The position numbers and the translations under genes were made by a program. This document shows positions 10,284 through 42,879 of a stretch of 64,000 bases of DNA, piece by piece. The notes below the pieces were generated by a model that saw only the letters and a list, made by a program, of their open reading frames with translations, had not been told where the DNA came from and made no database searches. Position 1 is the first letter of the stretch. Every line of letters starts with the position of its first letter. This DNA is from Cenococcum geophilum 1.58 (lineage: Eukaryota > Ascomycota > Dothideomycetes > Gloniales > Gloniaceae). The stretch covers positions 2,967,785 to 3,031,784 of the forward strand of contig KV748186.1 in NCBI GenBank assembly GCA_001692895.1. Direction: 5' to 3'.

Positions 10284-10312
10284 CATTAGGATTATTTTTT
10301 TGGGCGCGTTGT

Positions 10313-10458
10313 TGCAGCCGAAAATTGGGGTCTGCTTAACTCGCTTAAGTCGCAATTTTAGCAATTTGCGGCGATTTGCAGCGATTTACAGGCTACTTTG
10401 TGTAAATTGCTAAAATTATAACTTAAGCGACTTAAGCAGACCCTAATTTTTGGCTGCA
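10313..10458. repeat. X1 subterminal hairpin
   Basis: Two arms of about 55 bp (10,313-10,367 and 10,403-10,458) are near-perfect inverted copies, each with GTCTGCTTAA and CTTAAGTCGC-type words, around a spacer of about 35 bp. Confidence 0.85.
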
Positions 10459-10496
10459 ATAAAAATGCAATAAATGTAATAAAAATACTATAAAAC

Positions 10497-11357
10497 TGTA
10501 TAAAGCGCTGCACGAAGCTCTATATAAAGCTCTATATAAAGCTTTGCACGAGGTTCTATATAAGGCTCTATATAAAGCTCTACGTATAGAGGCTGTATAT
10601 AAAGCTCTATATAAAGCTCTATACGAAGCTTTACACGAAGCTCTATACAAAGCTCTATACGAAGCTCTATACGAAGCTCTATACGAAGCTCTATATAAAG
10701 CTCTATACAAAGCTCTATACGAAGCTCTATATAAAGCTTTACACGAGGCTCTATATAAGGCTCTATACGAAGCTTTATATATAAAGGCTTTGTATAAGGC
10801 TCTATACAAAGCTCTATACAAGGCTCTATATAAAGCTCTGCACTAAGCTCTATATAAAGCTCTACACGAAGCTCTACATAAAGCTCTATATAAAGCTCTA
10901 TACAAAGCTCTATATAAAGCTCTATATAAAGCTCTATATAAAGCTCTATATAAAGCTTTACATAAGGTTCTATACTAGGGTTTATATAAGGCTCTATATA
11001 AAGGCTCTGCATAAAGCTTTATATAAGACTCTATACAAAGCTCTATACAAGGCTTTATATAAAGCTCTATACGAAGCTCTATATAAAGCTCTATATAAAG
11101 CTTTATACGAGGCTCTACGCGAGGCTCTATATAAAGCTCTATATAAAGCTTTATACAAATCTCTATACAAAGCTTTATATAAGGCTCTACGTAAGGCTCT
11201 ATATAAAGCTCTACATATAAAGGCTCTGCATAAGGCTCTGCACGAAGCTTTGTATAAAGCTCTATATAAAGCTCTATACGAAGCTCTATATATAGAGGCT
11301 CTGTATAAGGCTCTGCGCGAAGCTCTACGCATAGAGGCTCTATACAAAGCTCTATAT
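10497..11357 (-). repeat. X1 array C, 12-bp minisatellite
   Basis: About 70 units of a 12-bp repeat, plus-strand form AAAGCTCTATAC. Because 12 is a multiple of 3, long repetitive frames appear on both strands; they are not genes. The sequence is the RIP-altered form of the GCAGAGCTTCGT units in X2. Confidence 0.9.
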
Positions 11358-11489
11358 TAGGTCCCCGCTATATTCCCAATAGCCTCTATACATACCTCTG
11401 CTAAGTATACCCCCTATATACACCTAGGTAGCCACCTTATTTTTTACCCTTTTTTCCTTATATTCTCCCTACCTAAGGAGACACCAGAA
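11358..11489 (-). other. X1 core 2 spacer
   Basis: Minus-strand sequence matches the spacers at 40,610-40,745 (X2) and 23,655-23,795 (X3): TCCTTAGGTAGGGAG, then GGTAAAAAATAAGGTGGC, then GGGAATATAGCGGGGACC. Confidence 0.8.
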
Positions 11490-11872
11490 CGACAGCTAGT
11501 AGACGACCGTCGCTATCGCTAGACAATCGTCGTTAGAGCTAGACGACCGTCGTTAAAGCTAGACGACTAAAGCTAGAGCTAGACGGCCAGAGCTAGAGCT
11601 AGATGGCTGTCGCTAGAGCTAGACAACCGTCGTCAGAGCTAGAGCTAGATGACCATCGCTAGAGCTAGATAACCGTTGTTAGAGCTAGATAACCGTTGTT
11701 ATTGCTAGACGACCGTCGCCAGAGCTAGACGACCGTTGTTATCGCTAGATAACTGTTGTTAGAGCTGGACGATCGTCGCTAGAGCTAGACGGCCGGAGCT
11801 AGAGCTAGATAACCATCGCTAGAGCTAGACGACCGTCGCTAGAGCTATACGACCGCTGCTAGAGCTATATAA
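11490..11872 (-). repeat. X1 array B, 20-bp minisatellite
   Basis: About 19 units based on GACGACCGTCGCTAGAGCTA. The minus strand corresponds to GTCGTCTGGTTCTGGCGACG of X2 and X3 with RIP-type changes. Confidence 0.85.
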
Positions 11873-11936
11873 TAACCGTTTAAACAACTAGCCAGCGAAC
11901 ACTATAAACGATTTGATTAATCGATTAAATTAAGGT
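11873..11936 (-). other. X1 core 1 spacer
   Basis: Minus-strand words ATCGATTAATCAAATCG and GTTCGCTGGCTAG are shared with core 1 of X2 and X3. Confidence 0.75.
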
Positions 11937-12051
11937 AATATAGACAGGTAGGTATAGGTAGGTAGGCATAGATAGGTAGGTATAGATAGGTAGGTATAGA
12001 TATATAGGTATAGATAGGTAGGCATAGACAGGTAGGTATAGACGGGTAGGT

Positions 12052-12092
<41 letters not shown>

Positions 12093-12196
12093 CAGATAGA
12101 CAGATAGATAAATAGATAGGTAGGTAGATAGGTAAGCAGGTAGGTAGGTAGGTAGGTAGGTAGGTAGGTAGATAGGTAGATAAGCAGGCAGGCAGT
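11937..12196 (-). repeat. X1 array A and GATA/GGTA microsatellite
   Basis: A minisatellite built on TAGGTAGGTATAGA grades into pure GATA repeats (about 12,050-12,110) and GGTA repeats (about 12,140-12,175). Confidence 0.85.
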
Positions 12197-12299
12197 TAGA
12201 TAGCTTTATATTTTATATAGTTATAATATAAATATATTTAAAAGTATATTATAGCAATCTATGGAAATATATAATAATTTAGTTATTATATAATATAAT

Positions 12300-12425
12300 A
12301 AAATTTTATATAGTTATAATTTATATAGTTTATACAGTTTATATAGTTTGTACAGTTCGTACCGTTCGTATAGTTTATATAGTTTGTACAGTTTATACAG
12401 TTTATACAGCTTGTATAGTTTACGC
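12300..12425. repeat. X1 subterminal 10-11 bp repeat
   Basis: Tandem copies of CAGTTTATAC and variants near the right end. A similar GTTTTATACGT repeat lies at the matching place in X3 (about 22,710-22,750). Confidence 0.75.
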
Positions 12426-12579
12426 GCTATTTATTTATAAGGTAGCAAAAAGCTAGCATTAGTTTAGTCGTTAAGCGTTTTACGCGAATCGCTAACGACC
12501 ATATACGACTGCCTGAATCGCACAGTTTGCAGTAAATTGCCGCAATCTACAACAACGCGCCTAAAAAAAAATCCTGATG

Positions 12580-14930
12580 ACTAGGGGCTACGGAGGTTAA
12601 AGCGACTATTATATAGTAGTGCACTTCCGGGAGCTAGTAGAGAGAAGGGTACAGCTAATATGCGTTTCGTAGGTATGCTTATACTAAGAGTATATATAGC
12701 TTTACTGTAGTATACTTAATAGTTTTAGGGTTTTAATTACCTCCCCCTTATATATAGGTGATCTGCGCTAGTACCGAAGGGTCTCTATAGGTACTCGCTG
12801 CCAGTAATAGTAGGTCCTCTATTATATTTATAACCGGTGTCTCTATATCTAAAGGGTTTATACGGGTACTTACTACTAGTAACAATAGGTCCTCTATTAT
12901 ATTTACAACCAGCGTAAAAAAGGAGTCTTCTAGCTATAGCGAATAGACTATTTTACTAGCCTTAATATCTGTTAGGAGAGTATTAGGGGTAACTATTTAG
13001 AGGCGTCTAGGGTCCGAAGTACCCTAGATAAACTATTTAGAATAAAAGCTAATTAATAGATCTACTTCCGCGAGCCAATCCTATTTAAGAACTATATTAT
13101 AACTATTAAATAAGCCGCCCTAAAAGGTCTGTAGGCTAATAGTGCGAAAGGTACCTTAGGAGTCATTAGTGGTAACTATTAGATTATAAGCATCCTAGAT
13201 TATTATCTGGTTGCTGTTAAGGAAACATATAATAGGTTTATATAAACATAGCGTATAGTATATAGGCAGGTTAAACCTATAGACGGCGTCTTAATTAATA
13301 AGGTTAATTTAGCACCTATTATTGTATAAAGTACGTAGGCGGACTTTACCCTAGGGCGTATTTATCGCAATATGTACTATAATACGTTTCTTCTTTCCCT
13401 CTATATTAGGCCCTAGTTACAGTTAAAAGAGATACGCTATTAGGGCTTTAGGTTTTCTAAAGGCCGAGCTAACTTTTCTTTATTAGCCTACTTCTAGTAT
13501 TTCTTACAGTGGCTGCCTATAGTTCTTTAACTCGCCTATATAGCACTAGTGTCCGGGGGGTCCCCTAAGCCATTTAGCTTTTAGGTAATCTCCTTAGAAG
13601 TTTACTTAGAAAAGCGTCGCCATTTTTAGGTTTTATTCCCTAAATCTAAGTCTATAGAGCCTATACTATAACCACGCTTTAAACGCAAGGATTTACTATT
13701 ACTCCCTACGCGGTCTTCCGCAAGCTTTATAGTGTTAAGCAGTTGCTCTATATAGCGGATTTTAGTAAAGAGGTCTTTAGCGGTTCTTACCTGTTTAATA
13801 AAGTTTTAGTAAAAGAGCTCTGCTTATAGGTAGGCTAGGAGGTATAAAAACCAAAAGTTTACCTGTTGCTTAGGAATAATAAAAGGGGTATATAAGAAGC
13901 GGTCCTCTAAGCTATATATACGGGCTAGGAAGATATTAAACCTCTAGTTCTCCTTTATAATAGCTATATAGTATATAGTAGCATTATTAAAGCGCCTAAC
14001 TATAGGGTTCCTAATCTGGTCTTAGACTATAGTCTTAAACTTATCCTATGGTAAAGGACCTTTATCCTTAGTGCCTAGCCGTTAATACACTAGTTAAGCG
14101 ATTATCTTTTTTTATAAGACCTTTAATAGCCTAGCGCGTACGTCGTTTACAGTCATAGTTAGCATTATTGATCTTAAATTGGTTCTTAACTGCGGCGACC
14201 TACCGGTTAAAATACTGTTAAGTTATACCGCTAATATTAGGTAGTAACTTCTTAACTAGGGCGTTAAGATTTACTTAGCATATACGTTTGCCGCGTAACT
14301 TATACTTCTTACTAAAGAGTTAATAGGAGGGCTTTATTAAATTAATAATACTCTATAAGCTAGCTATTTTCTTAGCTAGCTTATCTAGCTCCTTTGGGTT
14401 AGTAGTATTTAGTAGAATGCTAGTAACCTTACTAGGCTCTTTTTAAGCCTAGGTATATAAGTTAAACTAATTTCTAGCGTTTATAGATATTTAATTATTT
14501 TAAGATTCTAAAGGTGGCTTAGATGCTACTAGTATGCTTCTAGCGGTTTTGTTTATACTAGATCCTAAGGCGTTCTGTAGTTATATTGCTAGCGTATTAC
14601 TATTAGGTATAGGCGTCGGTTTTCTTTTTAGAGGTATTATAGAAAAATTAAACCGGCTATCCTACTAAGGGGATTGGTAAGGATTTAAATATAAGGTAAG
14701 GATATAAATAGGGAGTCTAATAATAGAATAATAGGGTATATTGTATATATAGAGACAAATCCTTAAGGGAAAAGGAGGAGTCTGTATGCGAGGTAGGAAG
14801 GGTTTTCCCTAGGTATGTATAGCGTACGTACCTTACAGGTAAGTCACCCTTAGGTTGCCCTAGGGTCGCCTATACCTTACGGCTATATAACTATCTACTT
14901 AGGTTTTACCTAATAGTTTTAGACTTAATT
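12580..14930 (-). mobile_element. Gypsy C 5' part: protease, gag, probable LTR (fossil)
   Basis: Minus-strand continuation of the element whose RT lies at 9,537-10,283. The order in minus-strand sense is leader/LTR-like DNA (about 14,930-14,650), gag-like frame (about 14,640-13,600) and protease-like region (about 13,450-12,600). It is RIP-altered with many breaks. LTR borders are not defined because the matching LTR is missing. Confidence 0.6.
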
Positions 14931-17496
14931 TTTATATATAGTGGGCGAAGGATAGGTTCCATTTAAGAACTACTATTTAGACCTATACAATAAGCTAACG
15001 GTTTAACTATAAGAGAAGATTATGGTAGCCTTAGGCAACCTACTAACCTACTAAAGACTTATAGCCTAATATTTGTCGCTAGACTTAAAATTAAAATTAA
15101 TTAATACCCGTTCTAATCGATAAAAAGGGGCCTATAGTAGTTAAAACTTATTAATTATATCTATAGGAGCTAGAGTAGGAAGATAAGCTATAATAGCTCT
15201 TATACTAAAAGCGGTTCTATTTACGCACTAAAGAGCCTCGCCTAACTAGCTATATACTATATTATTAGCCAGTACTTATCGCAATACCCTAATTAACCCT
15301 ACCTTGGCTGCATACTATAACTATAATAAAAAGGATTACTTTACCTTATTTTGCCTAGAGCTAGAGGATATAAGCAATATTAAGGAGATAGAGAAAGGAG
15401 AAATGTCTAACGAGTTAGGAAAAGAAAAGCCCTAGGGAAAGACTCCCCCTTAGGGTACCTTATTAATCTTAAAGAGATTAATCCCAGTTTGTTAATAGGT
15501 GGAAAGCATTTTATAGTTCTATATATAGTATCTTAAAATAGATATAGAGTTAATATAACCGCCTTTATTAATACTAGAGTAAATAGCTTCGCCTTTATAA
15601 ATACTGCTTATATGAATAATATTACTAGGTTTCTAAATATAAAAGCTACTTAACTAAAGAAGCCTATTTAGGTAAAAGGCTATAACGGCCAAGCCGGTTA
15701 GCCGGTTACCTATATTTTAAAGTTATATATCGCTCTTAACGGATAACGCTAATATAGTATCCCTTGCATTCTAGATCTAGGGTCCTATAATATAATTCTT
15801 AGCCAAAAATGGATATCCTACTTTAATATTTGGCTAAATATATAATAAAGACAACTTATCTAGCTGGAGGATAGACTAAAAGTACCCTTCTTTATTAGGG
15901 AAATCCGAATTAACTATAGGATACTAATTATAAAGATTAACTTTACTTACTAGTAGGACGTCCGGACCTATAACCTAGCCTTTATTTAAGAAGACGCCTA
16001 CTATAAAGCTAAAAGGGACTCTGTATTAATAAAGATACTCTCCTAAAGTGCTATATTTAAAGGGGACTTTATATATAGTAGCGGGATAGATAGTAATATA
16101 GATAATATTTAAATTGTGTAGATCTAACTAATATAGGGAAGAATATTATTACGGAAGTGGGCATAAGCTAGAATACAATATACTAAACGGGGTAGTAATT
16201 AAAGAAGGCTACGTATACGTAACTATACGTGGTTAATATAAAGACATTTAGATGCAGAAATAGAATAGGTTAGGTACGGGTATAAATAGGGGTTATAGGG
16301 GAATATGTGTAGGTGTCTTGGGACAAACGTAAATACAGGTCAAGAACGTTAAAACGCGTAGGGACGTAAGAATGTATAAGTCCCGTAACAAATATATTAA
16401 TAGGATATAAGAGATAACCTCTAAAAGATGCGATAGGAGCTAAAAGGAGTAATAATAACACTAATACCCTAGAAGCCCCTAAAGTTATATACGCCCCTAT
16501 TATTATATAACGCCTCTATAGTAAATATTACTATAATTAGCGCTATAGCGTTTTACTTTAATATATACTAAAAGGACAATAAAGTCTTTATAACGAGTCT
16601 ATATAAGATTAATGGAATTATTAATAATAGGGAGGAAAAGCTAGCTAAGAAAACCGATAAGGAACTAGTTAAAAGCCTTCTTTTTACTATTTATACAAAT
16701 TATAAAGATATATTCTTAAAAGTGGCTTTAGATAAATTACCTCCTTACCGGACGTATAATTATAAGATTTAATTAGAAGCCGATAACTCGCTAGGCTATA
16801 GCCCCCTCTACTAATAATTAACGGACAAGCTAAAAGCAATAAAGTAGTACTTATTTAATAACCTTACTAAAGGGTTTATTAAGCCAAGTTAAGCCCCTTT
16901 TACTTCCCCTATTTTATTTATAAAAAGCCTAATAGAGGCCTTAATTTTTATATTAACTACTAAAAGCTAAACGCTATTACTTAAAAGGATTAGTACCCTA
17001 TTCCTTTAATTTATAAAACTCTTACGCACCTAAGCGGGGCTAAAATCTTTACTAGGCTTAATATCTGCTAAGCTTTCTACTAAATTAGGATAAACCCTAT
17101 ATATAAAGATTTAATAATATTCCGTACCCGTTATAGGTCCTATAAATATAAAGTTTTTCCTTTTAGACTAATAAATGGGCCGGCTATATACTAAAGGTAT
17201 ATAAATAACGTTCTTTTTAATTACCTTAATGAATTCTATACGGCATACCTAGATAATATTCTAATATACTTAGACAATATACTTAAATACTAAGTTTATA
17301 TTAAGAAGGTCCTAAAGAGATTACGGAATATAGGCTTATAAGTTAATATTAAGAAATGTAAATTTAGGGTTAAATATATAAAGTACCTTAGGTTTATTAT
17401 AAGTACGAATAAAATTAAAGTTAACCCTAAGAAGGTTAAAGCAATCCGTAACTAGAAGCCCCTATATACCATAAAGGGAATTTAATCCTTCCTTGG
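14931..17496 (+). mobile_element. Gypsy D 5' part: gag, protease, RT (fossil)
   Basis: Plus-strand parts in order are a gag end with a CCHC-type knuckle near 15,305-15,345, a protease-like stretch (about 15,500-15,950), and RT (about 16,640-17,496, with FRTRYRSYKY and AYLDNILIY). The reading is cut at 17,497 by Gypsy A1 and resumes at 25,063. It is RIP-altered with many breaks. Confidence 0.8.
17492..17496. repeat. Gypsy A1 target duplication, left (CTTGG)
   Basis: Five bases cttgg abut the 5' LTR; cttag abuts the 3' LTR at 25,058. The single difference is a G-to-A change of the RIP type. Confidence 0.85.
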
Positions 17497-17799
17497 TGTA
17501 ACGGGACTAGCCCAGTTATAGTAGGAATGTCTTAGTAAAACACTTAACAGATAAATTCCGACGCTTTGACTAAAATCTGCCCAATTAATCAAATTACCAA
17601 AGTCCGTTAAAGACCGCGTGCGTATATACGCACGCATTGACCACTAAGCCCCTAACTATTTAATTATATAATTCTCTTATTATTCCTTTCTCTTTTTTAC
17701 GCAACGTCTTGTTCTTAGCAAGAGCTATATACCCTTAGATTTAGATAGAATTTATATTATTCCTTTAAATCTTCCTTAAAGTCTCTCCGCGTCCTTATA
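17497..17799 (+). repeat. Gypsy A1 5' LTR
   Basis: 303 bp, TGTAACGGGAC...CCTTATA. It matches the 3' LTR over its whole length. Confidence 0.9.
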
Positions 17800-20700: not shown

Positions 20701-22575
20701 TATAACTATTTTAATCCTTACTACTTTAATCCGGACCTTAAATATATCGTTAAAATAGACTCGTCTAATTATACACTAGGAGGAGTGTTATCGCAGTATA
20801 ATAAGAACGGTAAGCTGCGCCTAGTAGCCTTTCTCTCCCGGAAACTTACCCCTACTAAATTAAACTATAAGATATATAATAAGGAACTACTTGCAATTAT
20901 TAGATACTTTAAATAATGGCGCCTAGAACTTAAAGGATTATTGTTCCTAATATGCGTATTAACGGACCATAAAAACCTATAGTACTTTATAACTATAAAG
21001 CAATTAACGCAGCGCTAAATTCGTTAGGCTGAATACCTTTTATAATTTAACTTTAAGATTACGTACCGACCTAGTAAACTTAACTAGAAGCCTAACTTAT
21101 TAATATAATAATTATAGGACTTACCTATAAACGCCTCTAATAAACGGATTATAAATTAATTACGAATTCTACTGCCCCCTAAACGCTTTAAGAAACTACG
21201 CCCTATATTCCTAGATGCGGAGCTTAATAGAAATAAATTGGAAATCGATAAGTAGGATATAAAAATTGATAAATTAATAGAATATAAATGTAAGAACGAC
21301 CCCTAGATAGCAGATATAATAAAAGCGATTTAAATAGGGAAACGGTAATATAAGGATATCACACTCGCTAAATGCGAAATCCGTAATAATCGGTTATACT
21401 ATTAACAGAAGATAATAGTCCCAAATTCTAAACCCTTATAATTTAAGATACTCGAATTTGTATACAATTCCCCTATAGTAGGGTATCCTAGCTATATAAA
21501 GACCTATAAGATTATCTAATAAGTATACTACTAGCCTATAATACACGACTATATATAAAAATACGTTTAAGTATACAGAATATGTGTACGTAGGAAGACC
21601 TCTTATATAAAGAAGTAAGGAGTATTTTAACCGTTGCCAATTCCAATACAAAGATAGTAAGATATCTTAATTGACTTTATAGTTAACCTACCTAACAGTA
21701 ATAGGTTTACGAATATTATAGTAGTTGTTAACCATCTTATAAAAATGCGATATATAATCCCTATAGACTTAATTAATACAATATTAGTAGCTGAATGTTT
21801 TATTAAGCACGTCTTTAAGCTATATAGACTTCCTAATTTAATAATATCCGACCGCGAAAGCCAGTTTATTTTAAACTTCTAGCAAGCCCTATATAAACAA
21901 TTAAGTATATAAACACAACTCTTAACTGTATTTTATCTAGAGATAGATAGTTAAACCGAAATTATAAACGCGATTATAGAATAATACCTATAAATATACT
22001 ACTCCTACCTATAAGACGACTAGGAGAAATAGCTACTATTAGCTAAGTTTACTGCAAATAATATAAGAAACGAATTAATAGGCGTAATGCCGTTCTACGT
22101 AACCTACGGATAAGACCCTTAACTAGGATTTAAACTATAACCCGAAATTAATATAATAGGACCTATAATTAAGAGGATTTAACTAATTAACGCGTATAAT
22201 TTTATTAATTAAATAAAGCAGTTAATGGAACTATTATAAAGTGAATTAGCGTACGCTTAAATAGTATAGGAATGGCATATAAATAAAGGACGAGCTCCTA
22301 CGTAGGACTTTAAGGAAGGTAATATAGTTTACCTAAATATATAAAACCTAAAGACTTAACGACCTTTAAAGAAACTAGACTAGAAGTTTATAGGTCTATA
22401 CTAAGTTAAGAAAAAACTAAGCCCGTATACTTATAAACTTAAACTATTAACTAAGATAAAAATATATCTAACGTTTTATATAAACTTGCTGTAACCCTTA
22501 AAGGGTAAACCTATAACTCGCGAATTACCACCGCTACCTCCCGTAATTATTAATAACGGCGTCAGGAAAACGGGA

Positions 22576-22700
22576 GGGTGGTAGGGGCTAGCCAAGGGCT
22601 AGCCCGGGGCTGGCCCGGGGTCATTTCAGCTGGATCCGCTGATCTGCTCATATACACTTATTTACGCTAGCCCAGGGCTAGCCCGGGGCCATATTAGCAA
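22576..22700. repeat. X3 left subterminal GCTAGCCC repeats
   Basis: Several copies of GGGCTAGCCC and GGCTGGCCCGGGG. The same palindromic words recur near the right end (about 23,985-24,110). Confidence 0.85.
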
Positions 22701-22789
22701 CATTAGCATATTTTATACGTTTTGTACGTTTTATACGTTTTATATATTTTATATAATATTTCCTATAGCTGCAATATGTATAATTATAA

Positions 22790-22850
22790 TAAAATTCAAA
22801 ATTCAAAATTCAAAATTTAAAATTTAAAAATTTAAAATTTAAAATTAATA
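22790..22850. repeat. short AAAATTC tandem repeat
   Basis: Seven-base units AAAATTC/AAAATTT repeat about eight times in the AT-rich part of X3. Confidence 0.8.
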
Positions 22851-22948
22851 GTAGCTATAAGGGATATCTCTCGCAGAGTCTCCAAATCGTCAATTAGCGG
22901 CGTTCCCGATAATCCGCCGGCCATATACTAATTTCCTAACTAGGCCTA

Positions 22949-23105
22949 GTGCCTGTCCTACCTGTCCTGCCTGTCCTGCCTGTCCTCCCTGTCCTACCTA
23001 TCCTACCTGTCCTACCTATCCTACCTGTCCTACCGTCTGACCGTCCTACTTGTTCGTGCCTACCTGTCTGTGCCTGCCGGTCGTGCCTACTTATCTATGC
23101 CTACC
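22949..23105 (+). repeat. X3 array A, 10-bp minisatellite
   Basis: Units of CTGTCCTACC and CTGTCCTGCC, degrading into CCTACCTGTCTGTGC to the right, which is the X2 form of array A. Confidence 0.85.
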
Positions 23106-23159
23106 TGTCTGTATCTGTAATTCGGGGGAGAGATCGGCCAGATCAAAGGCTCTGCTTAA

Positions 23160-23361
23160 TTTGATTGCGATTAATTATATTAATTCGAATCGTTCTCTCT
23201 GGGCTTTGCTGGCTGTACGTTTAAACAGTGGTCGTCTGGGGTGCCTCCCTAAGAGGCCTTGATTCGATTTGATTGGTAATGGGATGATATCAAGGCTCTA
23301 GTTCGATTCGATCGATCGATTGAATTGATCGTGGTGTTTGCTGGCTGGTCGTTTAAACGAT
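23160..23361 (+). other. X3 core 1 spacer (two copies)
   Basis: Two diverged copies of the module with ATTCGAATCG or GATTCGATTTGATT words followed by TTTGCTGGCTG and CGTTTAAAC. X1 and X2 have one each. Confidence 0.75.
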
Positions 23362-23640
23362 TATCGTCTGGCTCTGGCGACGGTCGTCTGGTTCTGGCGA
23401 CGGTCGTCTGGTCTGGCGACGGTCGTCTGGTTCTGGCGACGGTCGTCTGGTTCTGGCGACGGTCGTCTGGTTCTGGCGACGGTCGTCTGGTTCTGGCGAC
23501 GGTCGTCTGGTTCTGGCGACGGTCGTCTGGTTCTGGCGACGGTCGTCTGGTTCTGGCGACGGTCGTCTGGTTCTGGCGACGGTCGTCTGGTTCTGGCGAC
23601 GGTCGTCTTGGTTCTGGCGACGGGTCGTCTGGTTCTGGTC
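23362..23640 (+). repeat. X3 array B, 20-bp minisatellite
   Basis: About 14 copies of GTCGTCTGGTTCTGGCGACG, most of them identical. Long frames on both strands here are repeat artefacts. Confidence 0.95.
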
Positions 23641-23654
23641 ACAGTCCTCTAGCT

Positions 23655-23795
23655 ACCGTTCTGGTGCCTCCCTAAGTAGGGAGGATGTAAGGAAGGAAGG
23701 AAGGAAGGGTAAAGGTGGCATTTAGGTGTACAAGGGGTATGCAAAGGCACGTGTAGAGGCTATCGGGAATATAGCGGGGACCCGATGGTACTTCG
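23655..23795 (+). other. X3 core 2 spacer
   Basis: GTGCCTCCCTAAGTAGGGAG palindrome, a GGAA microsatellite, then GCACGTGTAGAGGCTATCGG and AATATAGCGGGGACCCGATG; shared with X1 and X2. Confidence 0.85.
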
Positions 23796-23823
23796 GACGA
23801 TTTAGATAATAAGGAAAATCAAA

Positions 23824-23876
23824 GTCCTGCTAGGAGCCTGCTAGGAAGCCTGCTAGGAGCCTGCCCGGAGGCCTTT
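23824..23876 (+). repeat. X3 array C replacement, 12-bp units
   Basis: Four to five units of GCCTGCTAGGAG. It occupies the place of the 12-bp array C of X1 and X2 but has a different sequence. Confidence 0.75.
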
Positions 23877-23984
23877 AGGATTTTAATACCCTAATAGCAA
23901 TAAATACAATAATAGTAATAATATTATTTTATAGCTATAAGCTAGCATAGTGCTAGCGTATAGCTCTAAGGCTTAGCTAATATG

Positions 23985-24110
23985 GCTAAAAGCTAGCCCT
24001 AGGCTAGGGGGGGTAGCTAATATAGCTAAAAGCTAGCCCTAGGCTAGGGGGGTCAGCTAATATGGCTAAAAGCTGGCCCCGGGCGGAAAGCTAGCCCCGG
24101 GCCCTAAAAA
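23985..24110. repeat. X3 right subterminal AGCTAGCCCTAGGC repeats
   Basis: Three units of GCTAATATGGCTAAAAGCTA followed by GCCCTAGGCTAGGGGGG, ending in CCGGGC-rich DNA before the right inverted repeat. Confidence 0.85.
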
Positions 24111-24754
24111 CACTTTTAGCGAAACCAAATTTCCTGCGCCACTTCCCGTTTTCCTGACGGGTAATAGTTCTTACTTTATTAACTTAATTAATAATATACA
24201 ATAAAAAATATAATCTAAATAATTTAAACTTCTTGTTAAATGGGAAGGATGTGAAATATATACTTAGGAAACCTATAACTAGATTAAGACCAATACGCCT
24301 TCCCTAGTAAAAGAATTCTATAAGGACTATCCTTCGCGGCCTACTCTGGCTAAATAGACATAACATAAAAGTAAATAATTGCCACCTAATATAAATACAT
24401 AAAACATAATAGCAGGAAGCTTAAAATTAAAAAAGACTTAAAATATGTTATAATGTTTATAATATAATTACGTAATACGCAAAATATTAAGGAACTTTAA
24501 CGGCTAGTTAAAGTTATCTAATTAGTTAGATCTGCCTTACTAAGACCTACTATAAAGATATTAGTTCTGCTTACTGCCTTAACCAAGCTAATAGTAATTT
24601 TTTATCTTAGGGATGGAAAATCCTAATTAGTCCATTTAACGATAGAATTAGTAAAACCCTATACCGCTACCCGACGCGAAAACATAATACGCAATAAGTT
24701 ATAAGTCTTAACTAAAATTGAATTATTTGGACCTTCGGCTAAAAGGGGGGGTAC

Positions 24755-29870: not shown

Positions 29871-30648
29871 GCGGATCGTTGGTACCCCCAACAAAAATTT
29901 TGACCCGAGTTTGTGATTAATAAGCCGATTAATTAACCCAAAGCTTTAATTTAGAGCCTTATTGTATAGAGCTTAATTAACATATACTAGTAGGTATAGA
30001 TTTATTTCGTAAATCCTATACTTTCGTCGTGCTTTGTAGTAGGGGGTAAGCTTTAGGCGGAGCCTTGTGCAGAGCTTTAATGGAACCTTGTATAGAGCTT
30101 TGGTAGAGCCTCGTGTAGAGCTTTGGTAGAGCCTTGTGCAGAGCTTTGGTAGAGCCTCGTGTGGAGCTTCATGTAGAGCCTTGCGCAGAGCCACGTGCAG
30201 ACATGCAGACGTGCAGACTTGTTCTGGCGATTAACTGCAGAGACATTTATAGAGACTATTGTATAGGCAATTGTATGAGCGTTTAATTGATCGTTCGTAC
30301 GGGCGTTCATATGGGCAATTAATTGATTAATTAATTGTTTGGACGTTTGTAGAGCCGTACGCAAAGCAATACGTAGAGCCATTTGTAGAGCCGTTCGTAG
30401 AGACGTTCGTAGGCCGTTTAATTAATTAATTAATTAATCGTATAGGCGTTTATATAGGCAATTAATCGATTAATTGACTAATTATATGGGTGTTATACGG
30501 GCGATTGTGTAGACGTTTGTAGAGCCATTTATAGAGCTGTTTGTGTAGACGATTATAGAGCATTCCTAGTATATCAGTGCTGCATGTTAGTAGAGCTTTA
30601 GAGCTCCGTATTAAGCTTCAAGTAGAGTTTCGAGTAGAGCTTTAAGCT

Positions 30649-30667
30649 CAAGGGGGAGACCCCCTTG
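30649..30667. repeat. hairpin, higher-order unit 1
   Basis: Perfect 8-bp stem with 3-base loop, CAAGGGGG-AGA-CCCCCTTG. Confidence 0.9.
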
Positions 30668-31220
30668 GACCCCCATGCGCACTGCATGCTCTATTTACCG
30701 CGTGGGCAGAGCTCTTGCAGAGGATTTGGTAGAGCGTTTAGTAGAGCTTTTGCAGAGCTTTATATAGAGGTTCGTGTAGAGCTTTTATAGAGCTTCGGTA
30801 GAGCTTCGAGTAGAGCTTCGGTAGAGCTTTATCTAGAGCTTTGGTAGAGCTTCGTGTAGAGCTTCGGTAGAGCTTTATCTAGAGCTTTGGTAGAGCTTCG
30901 TGTAGAGTTTTAGTAGAGCTTCGTGCAGAGCCTTATGCAGAGCCACATGCAGGCGTTCGCACGGGCGATTAACTGCGGAGACGTTTATAGAGACAATTTT
31001 ATAGGCAATTGCATGGACGTGTGATTGATCGTTTGTATAGGCGTTTGATTGATCGATTGTATGGGTGTTTAATTAATTAATTAATTGTATAGGCGTTCGT
31101 ACGGGCAATCGTGTAGACGTTTGTAGAGCCGTTTGTAGAGCCGTTTGTAGAGCCGTTCGTGTAGACGATTATAGAGCCTTCCTAGTATATTAGTGCTGCG
31201 TATTAGTAGAGCTTTAAGCT

Positions 31221-31239
31221 CAAGGGGGAGACCCCCTTG
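31221..31239. repeat. hairpin, higher-order unit 2
   Basis: Identical 8-bp stem and AGA loop. Confidence 0.9.
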
Positions 31240-31904
31240 GACCCCCCCTGCACACTGCGTGCTCTATTTACTGCGTGGGCAGAGCTCTTGCAGAGGCTTT
31301 GGTAGAGGCTTTGGTAGAGCTTTTAGTAGAGCTTTTGCAGAGGTTCGTACGGAGGTTCGTGCAGAGCTTTTGTAGAGCTTTGATAGAGCTTTGAGTAGAG
31401 CTTTGAGTAGAGCTTTGATAGAGCTTCGAGTAGAGCTTCGAGCAGAGCTTTAATAGAGCTTTGAGCAGAGCTTTAATAAAGCTTTAAGCAGAGCCTCTTG
31501 TTTTTAAAGGCCTTATAAACGACTTTATAGAGGTTTGAGTAGAGGTTTGTATAGGCGTTCGTGTAGGTGTTCGTGCAGGCATTCGTGCAGGCGTTCGTAC
31601 AGACGTTTGTAGAGACAATCGTACAGACGTTCGTATGGACGATTGTATGGGCGATTATAGACGTTTGTAGAGACGTTTATAGACGCTCGTAGAGACGTTT
31701 ATACGGGCGTCTGATTGATTGTATGGGCGTTCGTACGGGCGATCTTGTAGACGTATTGTAGAGCCGTTTGTAGAGCCGTTTATACGGACGATCGTACAGG
31801 CAATTGTAGAGACGTTCGTAGAGACGATTGTGAGACTTCCTAGTATATTAGTGCTGCGTGTTAGTAGAGCTTTGGAGCTCCGTATAGGGCTTCGAGCAGA
31901 GCTT

Positions 31905-31923
31905 CAAGGGGGAGACCCCCTTG
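31905..31923. repeat. hairpin, higher-order unit 3
   Basis: Identical 8-bp stem and AGA loop, kept although the flanking array has diverged. Confidence 0.9.
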
Positions 31924-32254
31924 GACCCCCCTGCGTACTACGTGGTCTATTTCACTGCGTGCTAGTACACTGGGTGGGTAGAGGTGTTGTAAAGTCTTTT
32001 GGTAGAGCTTTTGTAGAGCTTCGTGTAGAGCTTCGTGTAGAGCTTTTGCAGGGCTTTGGTAGGGCTTGGTGCAGAGCTTGCAGAACTTTGGTAGAGCTCG
32101 ATGTTTTGAAGTTCGTCACGTGGATTCTGCCACAACTTACCGCGCGCACTTTTTTTCTAACCAATGAGAAGCTGGCTTGGCGGGAGTTTGAAATCCAGAA
32201 CCCGAAAATATAGACCACTCGTACCTCGGGTCAATAAACTTGTCTCAGCATGCT

Positions 32255-34603: not shown

Positions 34604-35637
34604 TTACTCGTATGCATGTGGTGCCATTTTAAGCCCTTCCAATGCCTTGGCACAGTGACCAAAGATCATTCTCGCCCCAGTCCTTCTTTGCAACATATGG
34701 ATCATCTGGTTGCTTCTTACCCAATCATCATGCTCTCTCGCCAACCAGCCTTGAGGCACACTTTCTTCGTAGTTCTCAGAGACATGGTACATATCGGTCG
34801 TGAAGACCCAGGTCCCGGTTTTCGGCATATTGACTTGCAGGATACATAGGCCGGGGGTGTGACCTGGGGCGTGGTGTAAATTTAAACCCTGCGCAATTTC
34901 TACGAAGCTGCCACTGAAAGGTACCCAAGTTAAGTCAAAAGTTAGGTAGTGGGGCAAGTAGACTCCTGGGTAATAACATGTCAATTGGAGGGGGAGCATC
35001 ATATAGGGAAGGGGAGTAATTTTACCCAAATCTGATTTGGTCGCCACCGAATAAAATGCATGCTTCAACTCCTTCTCATGCACATAGATCGGGACACCAG
35101 TATTTCTGAAGTATTCCAGTCCTCCAGCATGATCCAGATGTAAGTGCCCTATTACGACCATTTTGACATTCTTGATGTCATGGCCGGTTTTCTTGATCTG
35201 CACGTCTAGCTCTTGATCTTCGCTATAATCAACGCGCGCAAAAATGTCGTTGATCGGTGCGCCCCAGATTTCTGGGTAGTCTTTGCCAGACCCAGTCTCA
35301 AAAAGAATAAGGCCATCAACCGGATGCTCGATCAGTACGGAAACCATAATTAGCTTACGCCGCTCCCGAGCAGGATTGGGATTAGAGAGTGTGGAGGTGC
35401 CGCCCTAGGTATTAGTTTGTAAGAGAGTTAGGTCAAGGAGTGAGACATCTCGCTCTCGCACATACACCGCGTTTGAACCAGGCTTCATCACATTCCAGAT
35501 TACCTACATGAAGCAGCTACAACGGAGTAAGCAGTCGCTTCTTGGGGATGCTGGAAGTATATTACCCATAGCTTTGTGCCCTGTGGCTCAATTAGGTAAG
35601 CACACAGCGACAAAATAATAGGAGTCGGGACTTGCAT
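34604..35637 (-). CDS. metallo-beta-lactamase-fold lactonase-like enzyme
   Basis: Four exons on the minus strand: 35,637-35,566, 35,516-35,466, 35,404-35,026 and 34,965-34,604, giving 287 residues. Introns are 49, 61 and 60 bp, all GT...AG. The third is a multiple of three and stays open, so an unspliced reading would add 20 false residues (LGKITPLPYMM...). Metal-binding residues are complete: H128, H130, D132, H133 (HLHLDH), H203 (GHTPG), D225 (TTD) and H271 (FGH). This matches the quorum-quenching-lactonase type of the superfamily, which hydrolyses lactone or other ester rings with two zinc ions; the actual substrate is unknown. The N-terminus (GTKLW/LLHVGNLECDEAWFKRGG, TSTLSNPNP) agrees with fungal homologues as I recall them. 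Start ATG 35,637 is the first in frame with exon 1. No signal peptide is clear. RIP-free and intact. Confidence 0.88.
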
Positions 35638-36161: not shown

Positions 36162-36486
36162 TGTCACGAAGTGACTACAAGCGATGATAATATGTAGCGA
36201 AGTAGATCTTATTAAGCTACGTACATGAACTGTGTGATAAAGTCAAGACGTTGCGTAAGGAAAGAAGGTAAGGAAACAGGAAGAGAGGGTATATATCGTT
36301 AACTTGGTTGCTTGTTAACACGTACACAGGGCAGAGTAGGATTAGTGTAGCGGTCCTGAGCTTGGCAGAATATGGCAGAATGCGGCAGATTGCCGTAGAT
36401 TGCCGTAGATTGCGGTCTCGTGATCGGTCTCTAATTACTGAGTCGGTAGAAACAGGTGGGTGTGTATAAGGTGTCACGGGGGTGTC
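36162..36486 (+). repeat. repeat R copy 1, solo-LTR-like
   Basis: About 325 bp from TGTCACGAAGTGAC to GTCACGGGGGTGTC. It matches 61,092-61,430 in inverse orientation; that copy is flanked by a TATAG duplication, so R is a discrete mobile unit, most simply a solo LTR. It contains short direct repeats of GGCAGAWTRYGGCAGA/GCCGTAGATT type (36,363-36,415). Little RIP here, heavy RIP in the other copy. Confidence 0.7.
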
Positions 36487-36490
36487 CCGT

Positions 36491-36919
36491 TGTTACGGAC
36501 GCTTTAAGTACGATGTTACGACTACTTGGAAAAGAGACGGAAGAAGCTAGTTGGTTGATTCAGGCACGGTCCAGGATGGAGCCGATAGAGCCATGTGACG
36601 AGGAATGGTAACTGAGGTCACGTGGGGTGATCTGTATGATCTGTAGGATCTATGTGATCCGTGACAGAGCAGACAGAGCACACGTACATCACGTATAAGG
36701 AGGATTTCATAGGAGTACGGTTATGTATTTAAGGACCCTTAGTCCCTACCTAGATAGTTCCTTTCTTTATAGTGATTCTTAGAATACAATTAGAGTTAAT
36801 CTGTTGGGCAACCACTCTACCAGTTATTATTACGTTATTGACTTTTGTACTTACATTTCCTACATACCTAGCCTAATAATAGGACCTACCGTAGTTCTTA
36901 CTATAAGGTTCTATTATAT
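36491..36919 (+). repeat. Gypsy B1 5' LTR
   Basis: Starts TGTTACGGACG. Its right half (CTAGATAGTTC..., ...CTATAAGG) matches 45,120-45,254 and 63,755-63,912, the LTRs of B2 and B3. The right border is estimated from where B3 diverges. Confidence 0.7.
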
Positions 36920-39469
36920 AATTACTACCTAGTTACGGTATTAATATAGGAAAGTCGAACAATATACAACTAAAAGCAGCCACCACAACGCCATCTACGG
37001 CAGCAACTATATTAAGGTTAGGTAACGACACTAGTATAGCAGACACTGACTTACAGCAACCTATAACGGTTGGACAGCTATAAGAGATAGTTGACTAATT
37101 AATAGAAAATAATATAATGTTGGAAAATAGGATTAACGGGATAGGCGTAGTAAAGGTTAAGTTACTATTAATTAAGAGATACTTAGGAGAGAGATTAAAG
37201 CTTAAAGGATTCCTTACGCAAATGCACTTTAAGGTAGCGTAAGAGGGAGTAAAGCTGGCAATACCTATAGATTAAATAGTATACGCAGGATTATTCTTAA
37301 CAGAAAGAGTACTTAAATGGTTTAAGCCTTACCTTATAGAAATCCAGGTAAACAGAATAATGACTATAAACTAAGAGGTACGGTTTATATTCTTAAGCTA
37401 GAATGGATTTATAGAACGACTTATATAAATGTTTAAAGACCTAGAGGTAGTAACTATAGCGGAAAGAAAACTCTAAGACATTATGTAATAAATCTTAGTA
37501 ATTAAGTATATAATGCAGTTCTAGACGTTAGTGATATAAGTTAAGTAGAATAATAGGGCGCTTATAGCACAGTATAAATAAGGACTTAAGGCTAAAGTCT
37601 AGGACGTAATTATTCTAATGGAAGATGTAGATACCCTAAGAGAACTAATAGATTAGGCGATTAAGATTAATAATTAGATCTACTAAAGGGAATAGGCTAA
37701 GAAAGGTTAGGATAGAGTTCTATAGTTATATAAGGCGTAGAGTACGTAACGACTAAAGCTAAGTTAAAAACTATAGTATAGCGTAGAGCTAATAGACCTA
37801 AGTGGTACTAGAGAAGCCTATAAGAAATAGAGTAAGAAACTATAGAAACCTAGAGGATAAGGATTAAGTAATTAAAGGTCTAAAAAGTAGAGGCTAAACT
37901 AGGGATTTTAATAGTAGAAGACGTTTAGGCGGACTCTATAATAAGAAAAATGGTTTAGAGAAGGAGCTTATATAAATTGCGGAAAATAGGGTTACTTTAT
38001 AAGGGATTATAAAGATGGTTAGAAGTACTATATAATAAAGGAAACTAGACTAATAGTAGACGACATATACGTATAGAGGGATAATAATATACTATAAGGA
38101 ATAAAAGAGTGTTTAATTAAAAGCTTTGCGTTTTGTTATAACAACGCATACTAAATTTATAAGGACGCTAAGTATGGCGTAAGCTATTAGTTATAAGAGC
38201 TAGTACCTATAGGATATAGAGGAACTAACGAACCAGTTCGCAGATCGGACATTAAGGACGATAAATTTGACGTAGGTGAAACATTTCGTAATAATAAGGT
38301 AATAAGAGCGGTTTACTAGAAACATATAGCTATTAGAGATATTATACTAGAAGTAAAGGATAATTCCACTATAGAATAGGGAATATTAGTAGGGATTAAG
38401 ACCCTATTAGATATAATGTCTATCGCTTTATAAAACGCAAGAGAAATAAAATAGCAAACTATTTTAGCACTTGGTAAAGGCAAAAGGCCACAGGCTTAAG
38501 ATTTTTAAGATAAGATAAGAGACGACTAAGATTCTTAAGACAAGATAAGGCAAGCTTAAGGACCTATAACGGACGAAAACCAATAAAATAGAGCAGTAGC
38601 TTAGTTTAAAGACATATAAATAAGCTCGGGACGAAGTTTCCTACAGATATAAAATTCTTAAGACGAGATAAGTGAGATTTAAGACTCTTAAGATGAGATA
38701 AGAACACTAAATAAGCCTAGTTAGACTAAGGCTGGGGCTAAGCTTAAGTTAGAAGTAAGCTCGGGATTAAAGAATTTATAGAAATAAGAATTCGGAGTAT
38801 AAATCAGGACACCCATAAATAAAAGGCAAGAGGCTTCTTTATAGATTAGAGAATCTGTAATATAAACAGTAACTAGACTAAGAGACAGACATATAGACCT
38901 AAAGGACTTACTAGTAGAACACAGTATTTAAACTAAAGATTAAAAAGCCGATACCAAGATTAAGAAGTAAGAAGACTTTAAGAATCCGTTAGTAAGATGC
39001 AAACCAAAAGAAACTATAGACGAATTTAGAGCAAGAATTATCGCATAGCAAAAATAGAAACTAGATAAGAGATCTAGCATATTGGGACGTATAAGGGATA
39101 GAGCGCTAGTATAAAGGATTACTAATAGGCCAAGAATAGGCATACTAAGAGCTAAGTGGCTTACTAAACTAGAGAACAAAGAGGATTTAGGAATCCTAAC
39201 TAGGTTCGAAAAACAATACATAAAGGGCTATTATAACGCAGTAATAAGAAGATACTTCCTTACGGACAAGCCGTATATACTCTAGCAGCTATACTAAAAG
39301 TAGTATAGGCAGAGGCACAATAACAAGTAGGAAGATTTCTATATGTAGTTAGATAAAAAAGTTATCCCATCGGCAAAATATGGTACCCTTTCAATGGCCT
39401 CAATGGTTGGTGGTTGACGCAATTGGCGCGCAGTTGAGGTCATTTGGCAACTCGACCGACTAGCCTATG

Positions 39470-39540
39470 TCGTGTTTTTTTGACACGCAGCCTGCGCGTA
39501 GCCTGCGCGCAACCTGCGCGCAAACCTGCCAGCAATCTGC
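39470..39540. repeat. X2 left subterminal GCCTGCGCG repeats
   Basis: Four units of GCCTGCGCGYA/ACCTGCGCGCA between the left end and the AT-rich zone. Confidence 0.75.
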
Positions 39541-39691
39541 GTATTTGGCAACCATAATTATATTTACCTCTTTTATACTAATAGCATATTTTAATAAATA
39601 AAAGCTATTTTAAAGCTATTTATAAGGCTAGTAAATAAATAATATTATTTTAGATAATTTAATATAATATAGCGATGGTTCTCTTCTACCT

Positions 39692-40055
39692 ATCTACCTA
39701 TTGACTTACCTACCTGCCTACTTCACCTACCTGCCTGCATCGCCTACCTGTCTGCATTGCCTACCTACCTATCTGCATTGCCTACCTGTCTGCATTACCT
39801 ACCTGTCTGCATTGCCCTACCTGCCTGCATTGCCTACCTGTCTGCATTGCCTACCTATCTGCATCGCCTACCTGTCTGCATCGCCTACCTGTTTGCATCT
39901 GCCTACCTGTCTATATCTGCCTACCCGTCAGCATCTGCCTACCTGTCTGCATCTGCTTGCCTGTCTGCATCTGGCTTACCTGTCTGTATCTGCCTACCTG
40001 TCTGCAATCTGCTCCCACCGTCAGCATCTCCCTGTTTATACCTTACCTGTCTGTG
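39692..40055 (+). repeat. X2 array A, 17-19 bp minisatellite
   Basis: About 19 units of CCTACCTGTCTGCATTG and CCTACCTGTCTGCATCTG. Confidence 0.9.
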
Positions 40056-40115
40056 CTACCTTGATTCGATCAATTAATCGAATCGTTTATAGTGTTCGCT
40101 GGCTAGTCGTTGTCG
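40056..40115 (+). other. X2 core 1 spacer
   Basis: GATTCGATCAATTAATCGAA followed by TCGTTTATAGTGTTCGCTGG; the closest match is core 1 of X1 read on the minus strand. Confidence 0.8.
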
Positions 40116-40600
40116 TCTGGTTCTGGCGACGGTCGTCTAGTTCTGGTAACGGTCGTCTGCCTCTGGTAAAACGGTCGTCTGGTTCTGGCGACGGTCGTCT
40201 AGTTCTAGCGACGGTCGTCTGGTTCTGGCGACGGGTCGTCTGGCTCTGGCGATGGTCGGTCTGGTTTTGGCGACCAGTCGTCTGACTCTGGAGGACGGTC
40301 GTTTGGCTCTGCGACGGTCGTCTGGTTCTGGTAACCGGTCGTCTGGTTCTGGCGACGGTCGTCTGGTTCTAGCGACAGTTGTTTTTTTTTTTTTTTTTTT
40401 TCTTTTTTTTTTTTTATTTTTTTTTTGCCTCCTGCTGCTGGCATAGTCGTTCTGGGCCTCCTGACGACGATTGTCTAGGTGTTCTGGCGAAGGTCGTCTG
40501 GCCTTCTGGCGACGGTCGTCTGGGTATCTGGTAGTACGCGGTCGTCTGGTTCTGGCGAGCCGGTGCGTCTGGTTCTAGGCGATAGTGCAATCTTAGTTGC
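40116..40600 (+). repeat. X2 array B, 20-bp minisatellite
   Basis: About 20 diverged copies of GTCGTCTGGTTCTGGCGACG, less homogeneous than in X3, interrupted by the poly-T tract. Confidence 0.9.
40381..40427. repeat. poly(T) tract inside array B
   Basis: About 47 bases, nearly all T. It could be the tail of a retroposed RNA on the opposite strand, a slippage expansion or an assembly error. Confidence 0.9.
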
Positions 40601-40609
40601 TAGAACGGC

Positions 40610-40745
40610 CTCCTCTGCTGGGCTGCCGATTCTTAGTGCCTCCCTAGGTAGGAGGATGTAAGGAGGGAAGGAAAGGTAAAAAATAAGGCGGCTACATAGG
40701 CAGAGACACGTGTAGACGCGCTATCGGGAATATAGCGGGGACCCG
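40610..40745 (+). other. X2 core 2 spacer
   Basis: GTGCCTCCCTAGGTAGGAGG palindrome, then GGTAAAAAATAAGGCGGCTA, then GACACGTGTAGACGC and GGGAATATAGCGGGGACCCG. Confidence 0.85.
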
Positions 40746-41585
40746 ATGCAGAGCTTCGTGTAGAGCCTCCGTACGCAGAGCTTCGCGCAGAGGCCTTGTG
40801 CAGAGCCTCTGCTACGTAGAGCTTCGTATTGAGCTTCGTGTAGGTTCGTGTAGAGCCTCCGTATGCAGAGCTTCGCGTAGAGCCTCGTGCAGAGCTTCGT
40901 GTAGAGCCTCCGTACGCAGAGGCTTCGCGCAGAGCCTCGTGCAGAGCCTCGTGCAGAGCTTCGTGCAGAGCCTCCGTACGCAAGAGCCTCGCGCGCAGAG
41001 CCTCGTGCAGAGCCTCTACGTAGAGCTTCGTGCAGAGCCTCGTACGCAGAGCTTCGCGCAAGAGCCTCATGCAGAGCCTCTGTACGTAGAGCTTCGTGCA
41101 GAGCTTCGTGCAGAGCTTCGTGCAGAGCTTCGTGGCAGAGCTTCGTGCAGAGCTTCGTGCAGAGCCTCCGTACGCCAGAGCCTCGCGCAGAGCCTCGTGC
41201 AGAGCCTCTACGTAGAGCTTCGTGCAGAGCCTCCGTACGCAGAGCCTCGCGCAGAGCTTCGTGCCAGAGCCTCTACGTAGAGCTTCGTGCAGAGCCTCCG
41301 TACGCAGAGCTTCGCGCAGAGCCTCGTGCAAGAGCCTCTACGTAAGAGCTTCGTGTAGAGCTTCGTGTAGAGCTTCGTGTAGAGCTTCGTGTAGAGCTTC
41401 GTGTAGAGCTTCGTGTAGGAGCTTCGGTGTAGAGCCTTGTGCAGAGCCTCGTGTAGAGCTTCGTGTAGAGCTTCGTGTAGAGCTTCGTGTAGAGCTTCGT
41501 GTAGAGCTTCGTTGTAGAGCTTCGTGTAGAGCTTCGTGTAGAGCTTCGTGTAGAGCCTTGTGGCAGAGCCTTGTGCAGAGCCTCT
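40746..41585 (+). repeat. X2 array C, 12-bp minisatellite
   Basis: About 70 units of GCAGAGCTTCGT and GCAGAGCCTCGT, with a longer-period mix of CCGTACGCAGAG variants in the left half and near-pure GTAGAGCTTCGT in the right half. Confidence 0.92.
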
Positions 41586-41639
41586 AAGTAATAAAGACTA
41601 TGTAAGATTATATAAGATGGCGTAATTGGCATATAACTT

Positions 41640-41890
41640 TACCTTAATTGCATGTCAAGGAATATACAGTTAGCTTTTAAAGTTGTTAAATAGGTTAAAC
41701 TGCGTGTCAAGGAATATGCAGTTAGCTTTTAAAAGTTGTCAAGTTTAGTTAATTGCGTATTAAGTTAGTTAAATTGCATGTCAAGTAAGTTAATTGCGTA
41801 TTAAGTTGGTTAAATTGCATGTCAAGTTGGTTAATTGCGTGTTAAGTTGGTTAATTGCGTGTCAAGTTAGTCAAATTGCATGTTAATTAC
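41640..41890 (+). repeat. X2 right subterminal 20-bp repeat
   Basis: About ten units of TTAATTGCGTGTCAAGTTGG and TTAAATTGCATGTCAAGTTGG-like form. Confidence 0.85.
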
Positions 41891-42879
41891 GCGAAACGCG
41901 CCATATAAAGTCTACTTGAATCTTATCCTGCGAATATTTTCCCGATGCCAAGACTACCCAGTTATAGAAAAGGCCATAAATTACATTAAAGGAGCCTTAA
42001 TTATAACATTAAAGGATCTAAAAGAGTGTTTAGAGGACTAGAGAAGTAAAAGGCATATCTCGGTACTTATAAATAAAGTTATAATGTTTAGATTAATATA
42101 ATAAAGGTTTAAACTTAAGGATAAATATAAGTTAAGAGTTAACCTAAAGCACCTAGTATACCACACGCTATCATAGATTGCATATATAGACAATATATAT
42201 AAAATACATAAGAATCCAAAGGAAAAGAATTAGAAATACCCTATAAGGATATACTGGATAATGGATAAGCAACAATATAGGAATGCTAAATATATATACG
42301 GATGGCATCCAGTAGAAGTCTAAGAGGAAGGGGATTTAATACTTTAACTAGGAAGATTCCTTACGGAAGAATACTTAAACAGATAATAGTAGTAGGAATG
42401 CCTAGAGAATATATGTCTATAGTATATTAAAGATAAAAAGCGAACTAGATATTAGCTAAAGAGTAAGCTAAGTGCGACAGGATTAAGCAGCTAATAATTA
42501 GGAAAAGTAGAGGCCTATAAAACTAGAGGGAACTAGTAGTAGAGCCTTAGACCCTTAAAGGAATTTAAGGACAATACCTAAATTTATAAGTTAAGTGGCA
42601 AAATCAACAGTTTAAAGTATTAATAGATAGTGGAGCAATAAGGAACTATATCTCGCTAGCAGCAGTTAAAAGGATGGGATTACCTTACAGATAAAAGGAG
42701 GAACCTTACCTATTAGTAACAATTTTAGGAGATCTAATAGCCTACGGAGGAGGGATTATTAATCTTAAAATAGGACTAATTTAGTTAACTATCAAGAGAA
42801 GACAAATCAAGATGTCTTTTAATATCCTACTATTGGGACAGAATAAGGCATTATTAGGGATGCCTTAGTTACAGGAATA

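Follow-up and report, generated by a model that had tools for sequence, protein, structure and literature searches.

Minisatellite-built elements of Cenococcum geophilum as probable non-autonomous Plavaka transposons

The window analysed here is a stretch of 64,000 nucleotides from contig KV748186.1 of the ascomycete Cenococcum geophilum 1.58, and it contains three non-coding elements built of minisatellites, X1 (10284..12579, minus strand), X3 (22560..24159, plus strand) and X2 (39368..41947, plus strand). It is highly probable that all three are non-autonomous DNA transposons which are moved in trans by Plavaka transposases and which carry a shared body between differing ends. In the 177-Mb assembly of this fungus, whose loci and contigs are given here with the prefixes L and C, they are three of about a thousand mobile elements. 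X2 shares terminal sequence with a family bearing the Plavaka transposase domain PF18759, namely the right arm and end as well as the left end and arm, and by this comparison its place among the non-autonomous Plavaka elements is well supported. The same class very probably includes X1 and X3.

Ends, target sites and genome-wide copies

The ends of the X elements start with CRTCRGG or a sequence near to it. Four types of them are clear, and a fifth is less certain. Type a (CATCAGGA, followed by A or T) is that of X1, whose ends read CATCAGGATTTTTTTTT and AATCCTAATG. Type b (CATCGGCAAAATAT / CATCGGGAAAATATT) is that of X2, with the ends CATCGGCAAAATATGG and GAATATTTTCCCGATG, and type c (CGTCAGGAAAACGGGA) forms a perfect 16-bp terminal inverted repeat (TIR) in X3. 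Type d reads CGTCAGGAAAAAATTT; type e, CATCAGCATTTTG, was found at three loci and has the least certain ends of all. The TIRs are short, about 16–30 bp, and the arrays are internal and run one way. For PlavakaB, the relevant part of PMC12730594 (2025) gives the termini CATCA..TGATG and a target site duplication (TSD) of 2 or 3 bp. The CATCAGG of type a matches this CATCA exactly, the CATTAGG at the other end of X1 shows a change of the type caused by repeat-induced point mutation (RIP), and the CATCGG of X2 and CGTCAGG of X3 are one-base purine variants of the PlavakaB terminus. The ends of X1, X2 and X3 are different types of one terminal consensus. To describe the elements as an isolated family of unknown kind was accordingly incomplete, as their ends fit the known Plavaka group (EnSpm-like, CMCT clade).

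The limits of X2 (39368 and 41947) and X3 (22560 and 24159) are the positions at which genome-wide similarity begins and breaks off, and they coincide with those in the initial annotation. The limits proposed for X1 were confirmed by an end-to-end match at one other of the places listed, on C4, at 78% (40 of 2,582 candidates were scored). Identical 2-bp flanks were found in 26 of the 29 X3-type copies used (17 TA, 3 TT, 2 AG, 2 GT, 1 GG and 1 GA) and unmatched flanks in three; a thirtieth locus, L055, failed the end pattern. In a further set of 30 loci, neither end was called in L033 and L038 and one end only in some others. Read by eye, the 2-bp flanks matched at 16 of the 18 loci of types a, b, d and e with both ends called, the unmatched loci being X1 itself (L001), which is flanked by GT and TA and has no TSD, and L016, whose ends are uncertain. 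In the window, X3 duplicates GG (22558..22559 and 24160–24161, plus strand) and X2 duplicates CC (39366..39367 and 41948–41949, plus strand). Each copy had been credited with inverted ends of its own; the ends are precise and no single TIR is common to the three, but X1 lacks the duplication.

Empty sites were obtained for X3, where the window is contiguous across the joint at 2784–3348, and for X2, at L008 (window 48660–49001). These uninterrupted paralogs carry a single dinucleotide at the joint or its one-base C-to-T variant. A paralog search for an empty site of X1 found none. The initial reading of independent insertion and mobility was supported. Helitrons have neither TIR nor TSD and were ruled out on account of both. 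The 17 X3-type copies between TA and TA would suit Tc1/mariner-type, TA-specific elements with minisatellites, a reading we hold to be very improbable: in 9 of the 29 copies the matched dinucleotide is not TA, so that target choice is not strict, the copies in the window duplicate CC and GG, and a Plavaka-family element shares the ends of X2.

Genome-wide, the 18-mer of core 2, with up to 2 mismatches allowed, was found at 1,135 places, compared to 6 for a reversed control. The order of modules was examined in L009–L038, the first exact core-2 matches listed, of which 28 lie on C1 and 2 on C2. In 30/30 loci the detected modules followed the order array A, core 1, array B, the c2p palindrome, core 2 and array C. 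Array A was detected in 28/30, core 1 in 25/30, array B in 26/30, c2p in 30/30 and array C in 26/30 loci, whereas the 30/30 for core 2 follow from the choice of loci. A looser, RIP-tolerant pattern matched flanking sequence and gave 27/30 loci as "not ordered"; it was superseded by the stricter scan. The fixed module order initially described was upheld. Repeats are hard to assemble, and the three loci might have arisen by assembly duplication or by a chance pile-up of unrelated minisatellites; we give this practically no credence in view of the dispersed places and their control, the differing flanks and TSDs, the constant order and the empty sites.

Tandem Repeats Finder recovered all three arrays in X1 and X2, but in X3 only A and B. 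On the minus strand, X1 contains array A (11939..12182), array B with a 20-bp unit (11500..11867), the core-2 motif GGGAATATAGCGGGGACC (11360..11377) and array C with a 12-bp unit (10515..11357). X3, on the plus strand, has array A (22952..23112), core 1 in its long, duplicated form (23124..23363, approximate limits), array B with a 20-bp unit (23364..23638) and the core-2 motif CGGGAATATAGCGGGGACCCG (23764..23784). X2, also on the plus strand, carries array A (39726..40006), array B (40112..40376), the core-2 motif (40725..40745) and array C (40747..41584) between its two arms. The composite architecture of several arrays and cores in order was thereby confirmed; of the statement that all three share the array set, the part on arrays A and B held and the 12-bp array C is missing from X3. 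It is likewise missing from the X3-type copies and from L010 and L028. Array length varies greatly between copies and core length much less. Open reading frames of at least 110 aa in X1–X3 are repeat-derived. The X elements measure about 1.3–2.6 kb. Miniature inverted-repeat transposable elements (MITEs) in the narrow sense are short, well under 1 kb, and were ruled out by this size.

The 29 X3-type copies align over their whole length. They depart from the majority base at 1,486 places (Ns excluded). Transitions make up 1,381 of these, with G to A and C to T predominating, which is the mark of RIP. A search of the whole window with Rfam gave nothing at gathering scores. DNA folding of core 2, array B and the c2p palindrome yielded modest hairpins, the palindrome being best (z −3.2); the hairpins were not counted in favour of an RNA.

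A 20-kb Plavaka-family element with the ends of X2

PF18759 has 123 matches in the genome, some of which are two pieces of one gene, and matches in 0/14 control genomes. At L070 the transposase is followed, about 1.8 kb downstream, by the right arm of X2 (41631..41947, plus strand, including a 20/41-bp minisatellite), which ends in a RIP variant of the X2 end. The L070 stretch from transposase to arm was used as a genome query; it gave 2,196 candidates, and the 36 scored among them reached 85–92%. All 35 scored copies besides L070 reach query positions 4045–4066, the terminus being position 4050; 31 do so in one piece and 4 via a second piece. Twenty right junctions were fetched from among the 36 copies, and 20/20 end in GCGAATATTTTCCCGATG within 3 mismatches. 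The flanks beyond these junctions differ, and TA follows in 13/20.

Similarity among these large copies extends leftwards for more than 18 kb. The left edge was located by small paired probes and compared with X2 by eye. At this edge C4 and C111 read the left arm of X2 (39368..39600, plus strand, inner limit approximate), the left end on C111 being TA followed by CATCGGCAAAATATAGTACCC, and C19 reads the same left arm as C111. On C111 the element spans 183307–203249, i.e., 19,943 bp, with TA on both sides and with the termini and arms of X2. About 20 kb is unusually large for a Plavaka transposon. The most fitting view of X2 is that it derives from this element, both arms having been kept (about 230 bp at the left and 320 bp at the right) and the interior replaced. 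A transposase of the Plavaka group (EnSpm-like, CMCT clade) would then move X1–X3 in trans, which we infer for the types of X1 and X3.

Several observations weigh against this assignment. Both junctions were read in only one of the large copies, that on C111; on C42, one of three left-end sites probed, the end was not found, and the reading on C19 stopped short of the last bases and the flank. Stop codons occur in every PF18759 match listed, which leaves the family with no demonstrated source of transposase at present. Ends of the X1, X3, d or e type were found on no transposase-bearing element, and the Plavaka loci L069 and L071 showed no X-type ends in the 8–9 kb read, about 3–4 kb on either side of the transposase. 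The missing TSD of X1 has to be added. For X2, a relative with the same termini, as the initial annotation had suggested looking for, was obtained in the C111 element, whose family bears PF18759; for X1 and X3 none was found.

A shared body between different ends

The body seems not to be left over from the known 20-kb element. L070 lacks core 1, c2p and core 2 and shows a few loose single matches to the patterns of arrays A and B; L072 has no match to the other loci, and in L073 two stretches of about 140 bp match L048 and L038 but, as far as seen, are not body modules. Judged by eye, the exact core-2 places listed all lie outside both full-length copies (C1 and C4). The left 1.45 kb of the large element was read in small probes with gaps of up to about 535 bp, into which a very short body might fit; most bodies would not.

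One body is common to all end types. Ten pairs of loci were aligned, and the six longest pieces of each pair were evaluated. Between L027 (type d) and L024 (type a), the longest match begins at array A, ends within array C and covers 721 columns with about 590 aligned letters, at a plain identity of 76% and a purine/pyrimidine identity of 99.7%; the initial 520 bases of L027 lie outside all six of the longest pieces. Purine/pyrimidine identity was 99.4% between L037 (d) and L036 (a) and 99.2% between L031 (b) and L036 (a); L020 (b) against L024 (a) gave 95.2–97.4%, and two pairs within type a gave 91–99% in pieces. For an A/C transversion in core 1, loci with a ends showed A in 5 cases and C in 4, and loci with d ends A in 1 and C in 3, so that all four combinations exist; it was unscored in 8/17 a loci and 1/5 d loci. 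A second body marker, M2, could be scored in no locus and was left unused. Copies with the long core 1 are found among all five end types (a, b, c, d and e), those with the short one among a, b and d. Apart from L021, the aligned short-form rows agree in their junction to array A; for this comparison 5 loci without a core-1 match were dropped (L015, L025, L029, L030 and L018) and 8 long-form loci were left out. L014 and L017 show a third form of core 1, which seems to lack the second of the two copies. At L007 (about position 1502) and L024 (about 1373), type-a ends lie directly beside array-C-like sequence, which suggests nested insertion of X elements into array C of other X elements.

The simplest reading of these comparisons is that bodies were exchanged between elements with different ends. 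In X2, the coding interior of a Plavaka element of about 20 kb would have been swapped for the non-coding body of array A, core 1, array B, core 2 and array C, and the same body would have been placed between three to four other Plavaka-like end types, including those of X1 and X3. Recombination in the shared minisatellites, with breakpoints near arrays A and C, probably swapped the bodies. A different history, possible though rather unlikely in our judgement, is that one old non-autonomous Plavaka carried the body and that the end types diverged later without any exchange. The fixed module order agrees with such descent, and independent collapse of arrays and core 1 in each lineage could mimic exchange for the long/short marker. 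Repeated collapse of the long form explains the shared transversion less easily. Against common descent, the left arms of type d align (L012/L037) yet the d-type bodies differ: L012, L013 and L027 share the transversion, which is not of the RIP type, with the a-type loci L007, L011, L024 and L026, and L021 has the other state. Left arms in separate clusters beside bodies almost free of transversions are also hard to obtain by simple divergence. What tells against exchange and for descent is that the d/A combination comes from the single locus L021, of which one end only was seen.

The body might also be a mobile unit in itself that was inserted into several Plavaka derivatives. It is self-contained, it was not found in the 20-kb element, and its core 2 has inverted CATCGGG-like halves. 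We regard this as quite improbable, as no termini or TSD of its own were seen, its borders being minisatellites (array A, and array C or none), and no body was noticed outside CRTCRGG-like ends, with the reservation that 2/30 loci (L033 and L038) have no called ends and others were called on one side.

Core 2 reads GGCTATCGGGAATATAGCGGGGACCCGATG and contains ATCGGGAATATA, which agrees in 11/12 positions with the type-b right end; the inverse, CATCGGG, lies at its other side. Compared with shuffled sequences, its likeness to an end gave P of about 0.003 on the plus strand, 0.1 on the minus strand and 0.001 jointly; among five other body blocks in the same test, the lowest P was 0.08. Core 2 may thus be a candidate internal site of transposase binding. 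The resemblance to a Plavaka end is treated as a lead, with the weak statistics, its having been noticed after the fact and the testing of several blocks counting against it. Moreover, neither CpA nor TpG occurs in the core-2 motif, so that RIP would largely pass it by and some of its constancy has to be expected. When a-type copies are compared with c-type copies, neither of them chosen by core 2, the motif is constant apart from RIP-type changes, and its neighbours carry indels; one X3-type neighbourhood comparison of core 2 showed 5/30 X3-type loci. For Galileo, the section consulted in PMC4079207 reports additional transposase-binding sites inside tandem repeats. Binding at core 2 could be the reason why the body was retained with exchanged ends. 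In an extension which we put forward tentatively and consider doubtful, the body would be a second-order parasite, a minisatellite-bounded cassette which swaps into derivatives of different Plavaka families by recombination in its own arrays and is kept since core 2, as two inverted half-sites resembling termini, attracts Plavaka transposase from within the element.

Usual non-autonomous transposons have constant ends and a variable inside, whereas the X elements, in about a thousand copies, have a constant inside and variable ends. The exchange mechanism can be tested, and an orphan repeat family that is tied to a Plavaka element of about 20 kb becomes annotatable in related fungi. The elements offer a natural system for the role of internal sequence in transposition and for minisatellite-driven shuffling of mobile DNA under RIP.

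Neighbouring features and comparison with known systems

Further repeats were observed in the window. At 30060–32100, about 2 kb of 11–12-bp repeats of the TAGAGCTTTGG / GTAGAGCTTCGT type resemble array C and form larger repeating units; no core 2 was seen there. The stretches 43134–43910 and 45707–47142 have perfect 16-bp inverted ends (TATTAGTAACTCGCTT and TGTTAGAATTCTCCGC, respectively) without matching 2-bp flanks and are possibly other elements. A gene at 34607–35347 has 81% identity to Lepidopterella palustris and 94% to a protein of the Joint Genome Institute (JGI). Long minisatellites lie in or beside Plavaka elements at L072 699–1184, L069 6641–7513 and L070 7425–7995 (CATTATCCTACC type, CCACTGCTTT, 35-bp unit). 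L069 contains a ZNFX1-type domain (7883–8128; Pfam PF25396, E 8.5e-27), and a stretch similar to it by eye is present at 4865–5014 of L073, a copy of the 20-kb element on C32. If Plavaka carried a ZNFX1/Upf1-like helicase as cargo, this would be of interest in connection with RNA silencing.

Among known systems, the enlarged En/Spm elements of Chondrus crispus, cited in PMC6431247, are comparable in size (16–20 kb) and belong to the same broad clade. They are from a red alga, and the passage in PMC6431247 neither calls them Plavaka nor mentions such non-coding derivatives. The MITE of Porphyromonas gingivalis, as described in the part of PMC4596501 concerned, resembles the X elements in having a minisatellite within a non-autonomous TIR element. 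It is bacterial, whereas the X elements have several arrays, conserved cores, a length of 1.3–2.6 kb and several end types. Foldback FB4 (PMC2955051) and Tetris and Galileo (PMC4079207) are, in the sections consulted, likewise modular elements of class II that have tandem repeats inside. Foldback repeats are located in long TIRs, and since the X elements have TIRs of about 16–30 bp instead of long TIRs of tandem subrepeats, with the arrays in a one-way body, they were not placed in this group.

The closest likeness is to Plavaka of the PlavakaB lineage, with CATCA-like termini and 2-bp TSDs (PMC12730594). Unlike in Plavaka, no transposase was seen in the X elements among open reading frames of at least 110 aa, the 19.9-kb bearer has a minisatellite in its right arm, and the variants CGTCAGG and CATCGGC depart from the terminal consensus in the published part consulted (PMC12730594). 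The open-access literature searched (PMC) yielded no account of such a family. What is already known would be the Plavaka-type ends, and what appears unusual is a minisatellite-built, probably exchanged body common to four to five end types.

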